Positions 9,577 through 11,632 of a stretch of 11,632 nucleotides of DNA are shown piece after piece. A model generated the notes under the pieces. The model searched no databases. It was not told the DNA's origin and was given only the letters and a program-made list of their open reading frames with translations. The position numbers were made by a program, and so were the translations under genes. Source of the DNA: Actinomycetota bacterium (GTDB lineage Bacteria > Actinomycetota > Actinomycetes > Actinomycetales > Angustibacteraceae); assembly GCA_014377795.1 (NCBI GenBank), contig JACMOY010000049.1, positions 1-11,632 of the forward strand, written 5' to 3'. Every line of letters begins with the position of its first letter. Within the stretch, counting starts at the first letter, position 1.

Positions 9577-9843
9577 TCAGGCCAGCGTCAGGAAGAGCTT
9601 CTCCATCGTGGCTCGGTCCTGCTCGTCCATCCCGTCGGGGCTGGTCAAGCACTGGCGCATGCCGGAAGAGACGATGGCGAAGCCGGCGCGGTCGAGGGCG
9701 CGGTTGACGGCCGCGAGCTGGGTGACGACGTCCTTGCAGTCACGGCCCTCCTCGATCAACCGGATCACGCCGCCGAGCTGGCCTTGCGCTCGCCGCAGGC
9801 GGTTGACCACGGGGGTCATGTCATCGGGTTCGAGGGTGACCAT
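9577..9843 (-). CDS. CsoR/CstR-family repressor lacking the copper-ligand histidine
   Basis: This is an 88-residue all-helical DUF156-type repressor, expected to act as a tetramer that leaves its operator when its sensor cysteines react. [12 protein letters not shown] at 15-26 is the basic first helix. C36 lies in [13 protein letters not shown] and C65 in S-S-G-M-R-Q-C; E81 is also kept. In M. tuberculosis CsoR copper is held by C36, H61 and C65, and this protein aligns residue for residue with glycine at 61. Two cysteines without the histidine is the pattern of CstR, the persulfide/polysulfide sensor, and the neighbouring MBL-rhodanese gene agrees with that. ATG at 9843 has AAGGA 6 bases upstream. 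The gene lies 28 bases downstream of the DUF302 gene in one transcript, and converges on ackA with only 21 bases between the two stops. Confidence 0.9.
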
Positions 9844-9871
9844 GAGGAGTCCTTCGGTGGCTGGGGGGACG

Positions 9872-10264
9872 TCAGGGGGTGAGGGAGTCGAGCGCAGCGG
9901 TCAGCCGCGTGCGGGCGTCGTCGGCGACCGCGACGAGGTCGTGGTTGCCGGTCAGGTCGACCATCACCGAGGGGTCCATCGCCTCGACGAGGGTGTGGTT
10001 CTCGTCGACCGACCGTACGACGACGTTGCACGGCAGCAGCAGGCCGATCGACGGCTCCGCCTGGAGGGCGGCGTAAGCCAGCGGGGGACGGCAGGCGCCG
10101 AGGATGACCTGCGGGGCGACGTCGACGTCGAGCTTGGACTTCAGGGTGGCACGCAGGTCGATCTCGGTGAGAACGCCGAAACCCTGCCGCACCAACGCCT
10201 CTCGCGTGGCCTCCAGGGTCTGCTCGAACGTGTCGTCAACGGTGGTGGTCAGGGCGTATCCCAT
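9872..10264 (-). CDS. DUF302 domain protein
   Basis: This 130-residue protein consists of a single DUF302 domain; biochemical function is not established for the family. The family core is clear: [13 protein letters not shown] at 55-67 and [11 protein letters not shown] at 73-83, placing cysteines at 58 and 79 as candidate redox or thiol-reactive residues. An amphipathic helix (E14-F29) precedes the conserved F-G-V-L-T-E-I-D strand. No signal peptide is seen, so it is probably cytoplasmic. ATG at 10264 is preceded by GAGGAGA at 5-6 bases. It is the first gene of the unit DUF302 - CstR-like repressor, and a palindromic operator candidate overlaps its presumed promoter, so autoregulated expression responding to sulfur stress is the natural inference. 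Confidence 0.9.
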
Positions 10265-10306
10265 GTCGTCTCCTCAGGTCTCGCGGTCGGAGGACCGCTG
10301 CCTCAC

Positions 10307-10312
10307 AGCATA
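10307..10312 (-). promoter_or_regulatory. Candidate -10 element for the DUF302-repressor unit
   Basis: On the minus strand this reads TATGCT (fits TANNNT), about 43 bases upstream of the DUF302 start. The palindrome at 10312-10327 begins on it and extends into the -10/-35 spacer, a geometry suited to repression. Confidence 0.4.
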
Positions 10313-10327
10313 TACCTGCTGGGGTAT
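10312..10327. promoter_or_regulatory. Candidate CsoR/CstR operator 1 (minus-strand promoter side)
   Basis: ATACC-TGCTGG-GGTAT is a dyad with 5-bp arms and a 6-base G/C-rich centre. It matches the half-sites and spacing of the second site at 10381-10398 and resembles the A-T-A-C-C/G-G-T-A-T type of operator described for CsoR-family repressors. It overlaps the presumed promoter of the repressor transcript. Confidence 0.7.
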
Positions 10328-10358
10328 GTAGGCAGCAGTTGGGCGATGCGGCCAAATG

Positions 10359-10368
10359 CCCCCGGGGG
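10359..10368. repeat. CCCCCGGGGG palindrome between the two operators
   Basis: A perfect 10-bp G/C palindrome lies in the divergent promoter region. Its right half continues as GGGGGTA (10364-10370), which is the inverse of TACCCCC (10383-10389) inside operator 2. The plus-strand promoter is thus flanked by an additional inverted pair. Confidence 0.4.
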
Positions 10369-10371
10369 TAC

Positions 10372-10377
10372 TACTCT
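10372..10377 (+). promoter_or_regulatory. Candidate -10 element for the MBL-rhodanese gene
   Basis: TACTCT fits TANNNT and lies immediately upstream of operator 2, so the transcription start would fall near 10384 inside the palindrome. No convincing -35 box is visible. Confidence 0.35.
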
Positions 10378-10380
10378 CTA

Positions 10381-10398
10381 GATACCCCCAGTGGTATC
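10381..10398. promoter_or_regulatory. Candidate CsoR/CstR operator 2 (plus-strand promoter side)
   Basis: GATACC-CCCAGT-GGTATC is a perfect 6-bp-arm dyad with a 6-base centre; one more matching base pair on each side extends it to 10380-10399. It shares the ATACC-N6-GGTAT core with operator 1 and ends 19 bases before the MBL-rhodanese start codon. Confidence 0.75.
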
Positions 10399-10417
10399 TG
10401 GACGAGAGGGACCGCAG

Positions 10418-11632
10418 ATGACCGTCAGCATCATCACGATCGAGACCCCGACGTTGGGCGACCGGACCTACCTGGCGCACGACGGCCATGTGGCCGTGGT
10501 CATCGACCCGCAGCGCGACATCGATCGCGTCCTCGCTGTCGCCGACGAGGCCGGCGTCCAGATCACGCACGTCCTGGAGACCCACGTGCACAACGACTAC
10601 GTGACCGGGGGGCTTGCCCTGGCGGAAGCGACGGGCGCCGTCTACGCCCTCAACCGTGATGACGAGGTGGGGTTCGAGCGGCTCGGCCTGAGCGACGACG
10701 ACGTCATCGACGTCTCGGCCCGAGCGCGCCTGCGTGCTATCGCGACACCGGGTCATACCTTCACCCACCTGTCGTATGCGCTGGAGTCCCGAGAGGACGA
10801 CGGGGCCTGGGCGGCCGACGCGGTGTTCACCGGTGGTTCGCTGCTGTTCGGGGCGACGGGTCGCCCGGACCTGCTCGGCGTCGATCACACCGAGGTCCTC
10901 GCCCACCGTCAGCACACCTCGGTCCACCGGTTGGTGGACGGGCTGCCGGACACGACGGCGGTGCTGCCGACTCACGGATTCGGCTCCTTCTGCTCGACCG
11001 GATCCACCGGGGGCGCGACGTCGTCCACCATCGGTCGAGAGCGGCGGACCAACCCGGCGATGACCCAGGACCGCGTCCGGTGGGTGGCTGACGTGCTGGC
11101 CGGCCTGGACGCCTACCCCGCCTACTACGTACACATGGCGCCCGCCAACAGGCGCGGACCGACAGCCGGCGGCCTGGGCGCACCTCGACCCGCAGACCGG
11201 TCCGCGGTAGCCGGCCGGGTCGCCGCCGGCGACTGGGTCGTCGTCCTGCGGGGCCGCGCCGCCTTTGCCGACGCTCACGTCGCTGGAACGGTCAACATCG
11301 GCCTGGACGGTCAGTTCTCCACCTACCTGGGCTGGCTGGTCCCCTGGGGCGCCTCGCTCACCTTGCTCGGCGACACCGCCGAGCAGGTCGCCGAGGCACA
11401 GCGCGAGCTCGTCCGGATCGGGATCGACCGGATCGACGGTGCAGCCACCGGCGAACCGTCGCAGTGGAGCGACCGCGCTCTCGGCAGCTACCGACGCGCA
11501 GCCTTCACCGACCTCGCGGAAGTGCGCCACCACCGCCACGTCACCGTGCTGGACGTCCGCCTGGCCGGCGAGTTCGCGTCCAGCCACGTCGACGGTGCAC
11601 TCAACCTGCCGCTGCACGAGCTGTCCGAGCAC
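10418..11632 (+). CDS. MBL-fold / double-rhodanese protein, persulfide-dioxygenase class (3' end outside window)
   Basis: Open for 405 codons to the window edge. Residues 1-240 form a metallo-beta-lactamase domain of the ETHE1/persulfide dioxygenase type, which oxidises glutathione- or thiol-bound persulfide to sulfite: T-H-V-H-N-D at 55-60 (H56, H58), T-P-G-H at 110-113 (H113), F-T-G-G-S-L-L-F-G-A-T-G-R-P-D at 137-151, and L-P-T-H-G with H186. The position where ETHE1 has its third iron ligand, the Asp of F-T-G-D, is G140 here. A first rhodanese domain (about 262-345) has L-R-G for D-V-R and no cysteine, so it is inactive. A second begins near 358 with L-D-V-R-L-A-G-E-F at 378-386, cut before its active-site loop. 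ATG at 10418 has GAGAGGG about 7 bases upstream. It is divergent from the repressor unit and resembles CstB-like proteins in overall architecture. Confidence 0.88.
   Translation, partial: MTVSIITIETPTLGDRTYLAHDGHVAVVIDPQRDIDRVLAVADEAGVQITHVLETHVHNDYVTGGLALAEATGAVYALNRDDEVGFERLGLSDDDVIDVSARARLRAIATPGHTFTHLSYALESREDDGAWAADAVFTGGSLLFGATGRPDLLGVDHTEVLAHRQHTSVHRLVDGLPDTTAVLPTHGFGSFCSTGSTGGATSSTIGRERRTNPAMTQDRVRWVADVLAGLDAYPAYYVHMAPANRRGPTAGGLGAPRPADRSAVAGRVAAGDWVVVLRGRAAFADAHVAGTVNIGLDGQFSTYLGWLVPWGASLTLLGDTAEQVAEAQRELVRIGIDRIDGAATGEPSQWSDRALGSYRRAAFTDLAEVRHHRHVTVLDVRLAGEFASSHVDGALNLPLHELSEH

Follow-up and report, generated by a model that had tools for sequence, protein, structure and literature searches.

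DUF302 proteins with a conserved cysteine pair as predicted members of a CstR-type persulfide regulon in Actinomycetes

The stretch of DNA considered here (the window) is one whole contig of 11,632 bp (JACMOY010000049.1, termed C283 below) from the draft genome of an actinobacterium of the Angustibacteraceae (GCA_014377795.1), which comprises 2.45 Mb and is 73% complete. The right end of the window carries a gene for a DUF302 protein, a gene for a CsoR-family repressor and, divergent from both, a gene for a fusion of a metallo-beta-lactamase (MBL) fold and a rhodanese (Table 1). The original prediction described these three genes as sharing one 153-bp region with a palindrome at each promoter, and the open reading frames (ORFs) and a pattern scan agree with that description. 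The DUF302 stop codon and the start of the repressor gene are separated by 28 bp, both on the minus strand, and this gap and the common strand suggest an operon in which DUF302 would be the first gene of the repressor transcript.

Table 1. Features of the sulfur-related module at the right end of the window.
Feature	Positions	Strand	Remarks
CsoR/DUF156-family repressor, predicted CstR type (C36, G61, C65)	9577-9843	-	88 aa; PF02583 E 2.2e-22
DUF302 protein with conserved C58 and C79	9872-10264	-	130 aa; PF03625 E 1.5e-22
Divergent control region	10265-10417		153 bp
Predicted operator 1, ATACCTGCTGGGGTAT	10312-10327		perfect ATACC-N6-GGTAT; 47 bp from DUF302 ATG
Degenerate operator-like site, ATGCCCCCGGGGGTAC	10356-10371		2 mismatches; position is its sole support
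Predicted operator 2, ATACCCCCAGTGGTAT	10382-10397		perfect ATACC-N6-GGTAT; 20 bp from MBL ATG
MBL-fold/rhodanese fusion, persulfide-dioxygenase-like	10418-11632	+	3' end off contig

The repressor is a member of the CsoR/DUF156 family (PF02583, 79.7 bits against a cut-off of 22.8). Its key residues read D35-C36-G61-C65, with both cysteines present and no His61. A Cys-His-Cys triad, appearing as Y-C-H-C, is the signature of the copper sensors. The repressor lacks this triad because of Gly61, while the two other CsoR paralogues of the genome, both encoded elsewhere, read Y-C-H-C. The best sequence match in the PDB is 7mq1/7mq2 (E 5e-12), and a figure legend in PMC9774590 labels 7MQ2 as CstR. Additionally, all 65 repressor ORFs from the DUF302 loci surveyed below carry C36 and C65, and none has His61; repressors of the His61 type would have shown up, because the search model also finds the copper-type paralogues. 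A copper-responsive CsoR operon would fit the family name and the palindromes with G/C tracts, both of which are shared with CsoR, but the loss of the ligand histidine, the presence of two Y-C-H-C paralogues elsewhere and the count of zero among 65 make such an operon highly improbable, and a copper CsoR identity was rejected on the residues of the repressor. The CstR-like sensor of the original prediction is upheld by both cysteines and the missing His61, and the repressor is predicted to be of the persulfide (CstR) type, not the copper type.

Judged from the DNA alone, a G/C-tract palindrome that constitutes the predicted operator is present at the repressor's own promoter and at that of its target. 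Across the draft genome, ATACC-N6-GGTAT is matched perfectly in only two places, both in the 153-bp region, and the reversed control pattern has no match. Likewise, 19 genomes picked for having these genes contain 70 perfect sites versus 0 sites of the reversed pattern. A promoter and terminator scan of positions 9500-10500 returned no sites, a result that says little for a high-GC actinobacterium.

Both sensor and operator resemble those of a characterized circuit of Streptomyces coelicolor, which consists of ScCsoR, the persulfide dioxygenase (PDO) ScPDO, a rhodanese and TauE (SCO0618, SCO0620 and neighbours). ScCsoR recognizes ATACCn6GGTAT; its release by polysulfide requires both C37 and C66, and ScPDO oxidized glutathione persulfide (PMC7533328). 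Because the consensus is the same and the spacing of the two cysteines is identical (C37/C66 there, C36/C65 here), the operator and sensor of the window appear to be of the known ScCsoR type. The sensor, the MBL-rhodanese, the operators and, by layout, the autoregulation have counterparts at the locus, and TauE is found only on a second contig, C266, of the same draft genome. Since the operator and these core components match, the core circuit would be already known from S. coelicolor and not new. In contrast, the four-gene circuit as given in the available text of PMC7533328 includes no DUF302, and in the window the repressor gene comes after DUF302, with the MBL-rhodanese gene pointing away from both.

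The DUF302 protein belongs to PF03625 (79.7 bits against a curated cut-off of 23), and its association with the repressor was surveyed in 394 genomes of the window's class, of which 111 have a DUF302-domain match. The 104 strongest places (E up to 1.2e-13) lie on 103 stretches (the window and 102 others) of about 14 kb each, some of them cut by contig ends, with two places sharing one stretch. Four stretches without a match to the DUF302 model (L097, L103, L104 and L106) were left out, and 99 loci were counted. Within 6 kb of DUF302, the repressor is encoded at 65 loci, thioredoxin at 30, an MBL-rhodanese at 27, an MMPL exporter at 27, TauE at 26 and a CMD/AhpD-like protein at 12, and at least one of these six partner families is near at 80. 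For a random site, the expectation of a neighbour within 6 kb is about 0.1%, taking 4.9 Mb per genome. In the reverse view, 150 places were listed where a close relative of the repressor is encoded, and DUF302 lies within 6 kb at 59 of them and an MBL-rhodanese at 50; these places are the best matches listed, with E up to 2e-24, and not all were checked for their residues. For one set of relatives, 109 matches (to E 1.8e-101) were used, and weaker matches, partial matches and the genome's own match on C266 were excluded. The original prediction had proposed looking for co-occurrence across actinobacterial genomes, and a conserved association of DUF302 is indeed found from both directions, contrary to the lack of association that it had named as a refutation. 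At the level of whole genomes, with cuts at a visible gap in the E-values (DUF302 E <= 1e-13, repressor E <= 1e-15), a close repressor relative is present in 86 of 93 DUF302 genomes versus 113 of 301 others, as raw counts that ignore kinship.

DUF302 and the repressor are at most 1 kb apart in 92 pairs, counted over the class set and a set of named loci, which overlap. The two genes are on the same strand in 87 of these, with DUF302 first in 49 and the repressor first in 38. The sequence distances of DUF302 and of the neighbouring repressor correlate over these pairs (r 0.75), a value for which the species tree was uncontrolled and which is not used as proof. In the named set, which includes other phyla, the repressor is within 6 kb at 39 of 80 DUF302 loci. 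Knoellia aerolata, Knoellia remsis and Nocardioides astragali share the layout TauE< MBL-rhodanese< thioredoxin> DUF302> repressor>. Plasmids carry related arrangements as well. Plasmid pSMg1-3 of Streptomyces sp. Mg1 encodes the repressor, a rhodanese, TauE, a second rhodanese and an MBL protein; the genes for DUF302 and OsmC diverge from this group. On plasmid pMYC1 of Mycobacterium adipatum (L233, positions 1-8099), an MBL protein, an FAD oxidoreductase and cytochrome oxidase subunit I are followed by repressor-DUF302-TauE-MBL, beside an integrase. The oxidoreductase resembles type III sulfide:quinone reductase at a score below the cut-off of that family, and the cluster is possibly a mobile sulfide-oxidation island. 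CMD/AhpD-like genes stand beside DUF302 at loci L065, L070, L085, L087, L094, L095, L101, L122, L129, L135, L138 and L145.

The predicted operator accompanies DUF302 itself. It lies upstream of the DUF302 domain start within 300 bp at 20 of the 99 loci, within 700 bp at 41 and within 3000 bp at 53, against mean counts of 0.07, 0.10 and 0.17, respectively, for a background of 29 palindromes with permuted half-sites. Ten of the 20 loci with an operator within 300 bp have no repressor within 6 kb. One genome (G261) has only two sites, of which one precedes a DUF302 gene that stands alone and the other a repressor gene about 31 kb away. Because the operator precedes DUF302 even where the repressor is encoded elsewhere or not nearby, DUF302 is predicted to be a member of the regulon, more than a neighbour. 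Chance palindromes were considered as well and ruled out by the genome-wide scan, the permuted half-sites and the reversed-pattern count in the 19 genomes.

The DUF302 protein of the window possesses both C58, which opens a conserved CNPPLA stretch, and C79. Their conservation, claimed in the original prediction, is borne out in all 100 aligned class sequences that cover the site; the alignment comprised 101 ORFs, and the only one that lacks the pair, from L105, is an overlapping frame that misses the site. Both cysteines are also kept in the solved relatives 1j3m and 1q9u. In an alignment of 56 sequences, Asp36 is likewise invariant, and no histidine and no further cysteine is. The two invariant cysteines and Asp36 could also suit a carrier of Fe, Cu or Zn with C58 and C79 as ligands, which might, for example, supply the MBL-rhodanese or shield metals from sulfide, and a heavy-metal-binding-domain protein does follow DUF302 in the Bacteroidetes locus L229. 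However, a metal carrier seems quite unlikely given that the alignment offers no invariant histidine or additional cysteine and that 72 of the 99 loci have no MBL-rhodanese within 6 kb.

Divergent members of the family provide a control for the cysteine pair. Twenty divergent DUF302-domain regions were taken from the same class sample, in stretches of about 14 kb, and their cysteine status was judged by eye (for L234, it was re-checked over both of its domains). Sixteen of them lack both aligned cysteines and form the control, while L235, L237, L243 and L246 are partial or fragments. Within the stretches around the 16 Cys-less regions, there is no repressor (0/16) and no perfect operator (0/16), which differs from the 99 loci with Fisher p values of 3e-7 and 2e-5, respectively. 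Of the 20 regions, L246 alone has a neighbouring repressor and an operator, and it is a fragment of a two-cysteine DUF302. Because the Cys-less regions are without repressor and operator and the one exception is a two-cysteine fragment, the cysteine pair appears to go with control by the persulfide sensor. Taken together with the surveys and the repressor-less operator loci, this control argues that two-cysteine DUF302 proteins are core members of a predicted actinobacterial CstR-type regulon. Chance neighbours without a joint function, by comparison, are refuted by the conservation of neighbours, operators and Cys-less counts over the class sample and have practically no probability.

The third gene of the module is truncated by the end of the contig. 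Its frame in the window contains an MBL domain above the cut-off (PF00753, E 5.4e-7) and a rhodanese piece just under its own (21.8 bits versus 22.2). The first 584 bp of contig C266 match the last 584 bp of the window with 97.3% identity, and C266, beyond the window, carries the rest of the rhodanese and then a TauE/SafE gene. The rhodanese domain there has an E-value of 5e-14 and the motif HCASGYR, so that the enzyme combines an MBL domain with a rhodanese bearing the catalytic cysteine, the architecture of a type III PDO. The identity of less than 100% suggests a strain mixture or a second copy, and because of it the linkage to TauE is likely, not certain. The PDB entries nearest to the MBL-rhodanese are 3tp9 and 3r2u, the latter presumably CstB.

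Given the computationally established repressor type, operators, layout and class-wide regulon membership of two-cysteine DUF302 genes, with the Cys-less regions outside, the locus is probably a self-regulated switch for the detoxification of sulfane sulfur (persulfide and polysulfide). In such a switch, the reduced repressor would sit on the palindromes and block the divergent operons DUF302-cstR and MBL-rhodanese(-TauE). As persulfides rise, C36 would become persulfidated or cross-linked with the help of C65, and the modified repressor would leave the DNA, so that both operons could be expressed. The MBL-rhodanese would then move and oxidize sulfane sulfur, by an exact chemistry that is likewise a proposal, and TauE would export sulfite. 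For DUF302, C58 may accept sulfane sulfur and C79 resolve it, with thioredoxin as the reductant that releases the bound sulfur as sulfide or passes it on. This chemistry is suggested because of the invariant cysteine pair, the Cys-less control and the recurrence of thioredoxin, and it is offered tentatively, with somewhat less than even confidence. The persulfide carrier or reductant suggested in the original prediction is likewise a hypothesis, although the cysteine pair tracks with the regulon.

Several observations weigh against this interpretation, and the first concerns the enzyme. PDOs hold iron with a 2-His-1-Asp triad (H57, H113 and D130 in AcPDO), and an Asp-to-Ala variant of the A. 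caldus PDO was reported to be inactive (PMC6060420). In the window, both histidines are kept and the aspartate is replaced by Gly140 (codon 10835-10837), in contrast to 3r2u, which keeps it. The enzyme is filed as PDO-like, not as a proven PDO, because of this glycine. The substitution is widespread among its relatives. The 57 sequences with a full site read H-H-Y-H-G-H in 46 cases, H-H-F-H-D-H in 8, and H-H-F-H-G-H, H-H-Y-H-D-H and H-H-H-H-D-H in one each, where the window is included twice (both Gly), genomes may recur and the class and named sets overlap. Excluding the entries of the window, 44 of 55 relatives have H-H-Y-H-G-H. Similarly, FTGGSL is present in all of the best 120 of 7892 matches to a Streptomyces homologue. 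By synteny, ScPDO probably belongs to the glycine-bearing class. No mention of an Asp-to-Gly change in PDOs was found in the literature search, and its occurrence in co-regulated MBL-rhodaneses raises a separate question of enzymology. A broader proposal would have two-cysteine DUF302 proteins act as thioredoxin-coupled persulfide carriers or reductases that form a core arm of the CstR regulon, and the co-regulated MBL-rhodaneses form a dioxygenase class that dispenses with the carboxylate ligand of the 2-His-1-Asp site and perhaps leaves one position on the iron free for the substrate; in this full form, it seems rather doubtful.

The remaining adverse points concern distribution. An MBL-rhodanese is within 6 kb at only 27 of the 99 loci, and at 19 loci all six partner families are missing from the neighbourhood, with 6 of the 19 lying on stretches shorter than 9 kb. 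Of the ten loci that have an operator but no repressor in reach, three also sit on short stretches (4.1, 5.0 and 8.1 kb). In 7 of the 93 genomes with DUF302, a close relative of the repressor is missing, and the genome-level association was not corrected for phylogeny. The Cys-less region L247 has a match to the MBL-rhodanese model 2.8 kb away. Outside the Actinomycetes, the 20 DUF302 neighbour ORFs considered (of 119; 13 of 21 loci) are mixed and include MFS, RNase E/G, CinA and methyltransferase proteins, among others, with 5 that have no family, one clear thioredoxin and one MBL protein. In addition, a DUF302 gene of Bradyrhizobium next to ccoG is listed as changed under microoxia (PMC6515984). 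Because the neighbours outside the Actinomycetes are mixed, a universal role of DUF302 in sulfur metabolism is not claimed. Within the class, the emphasis of the original prediction on a dedicated partnership of DUF302 with the MBL-rhodanese is not favoured, since the repressor (65) and thioredoxin (30) are both nearby more often; its sensor type, shared operators and DUF302 association stand.

The same neighbours allow the regulon to be read more broadly, as one for general thiol or electrophile/oxidant stress in which the repressor would respond to a range of thiol-reactive agents, DUF302, thioredoxin, MMPL, CMD/AhpD-like and OsmC proteins would provide broad thiol protection and sulfide would be one inducer among several. 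Thioredoxin, MMPL and CMD neighbours recur (30, 27 and 12 of 99 loci), and OsmC follows DUF302 on pSMg1-3, where it was seen once. A general stress regulon therefore stays in play, if as an unlikely account: the same loci include an MBL-rhodanese (27/99) and TauE (26/99), and the sister circuit of S. coelicolor responds to polysulfide (PMC7533328). A sulfane-sulfur switch is still the preferred reading.

The original prediction took the Staphylococcus cst operon, which in S. aureus also includes CstA and a transporter and to our knowledge has no DUF302 gene, as its only comparison. The S. aureus operon is indeed alike in combining CstR, a persulfide-sensing repressor of the CsoR family, with the MBL-rhodanese CstB (PMC9774590), but as the sole comparison it was overstated, because the S. 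coelicolor circuit is closer (PMC7533328) and a module with DUF302 has been described on plasmids of Antarctic Arthrobacter (PMC6305408). The latter, the SUL module, encodes a sulfur dioxygenase, a CsoR regulator, two rhodaneses, TauE and a DUF302 protein, and is the nearest printed precedent found for DUF302 in such a setting; in the text available, it is an annotation list that gives no operator, regulon survey or role for DUF302. DUF302/TT1751 proteins also occur beside the sox clusters of sulfur oxidizers, where their function is likewise unknown (PMC5037610, PMC11034169) and a periplasmic role has been speculated (PMC5037610). They belong to the same Pfam family in a sox context, with no CstR-type repressor mentioned in the accessible portions of these papers. 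In Thermus thermophilus, the CsoR-family protein TTHA1953 controls sox genes and is thus another repressor tied to sulfur, but its operator consensus (TACNNTACNNNNGTANNGTA) differs from that of the window, and no DUF302 is named in the text of PMC10318464 as far as available. No paper treating DUF302 as a part of a CsoR/CstR regulon was recognized in the literature search, which mostly did not extend to subscription papers.

The surroundings of the module are of separate interest. Positions 5822-9555 of the window encode a phosphoketolase and then an acetate kinase, whose match to its family profile begins only at position 85. The acetate kinase and repressor genes are convergent and 21 bp apart. 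A 76-bp stretch on contig C266, on the far side of TauE (L037, 1928-2003), is 85% identical to positions 9483-9558 of the window, where the acetate kinase gene has its 3' end. Copies of this end may thus bracket the module, a pattern that would fit the insertion or duplication of an island. A DUF2397 protein (PF09660, E 3.5e-97) adjoins the module on C266 (L037, 2021-3316); DUF2397 proteins are known from anti-plasmid defence loci.

In conclusion, the type of module is already known, and the link of DUF302 to the regulon is real and wider than the locus alone shows. DUF302 is a widespread family with solved structures and no assigned function that several papers place next to sulfur genes. Here, its cysteine-bearing members are tied to a defined persulfide sensor and operator, and the Cys-less relatives outside the regulon serve as a natural control. 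Because the two cysteines are kept where the gene is under the reactive-sulfur switch, a role of DUF302 in sulfur detoxification becomes testable, and a family of unknown function would acquire a concrete two-cysteine hypothesis.

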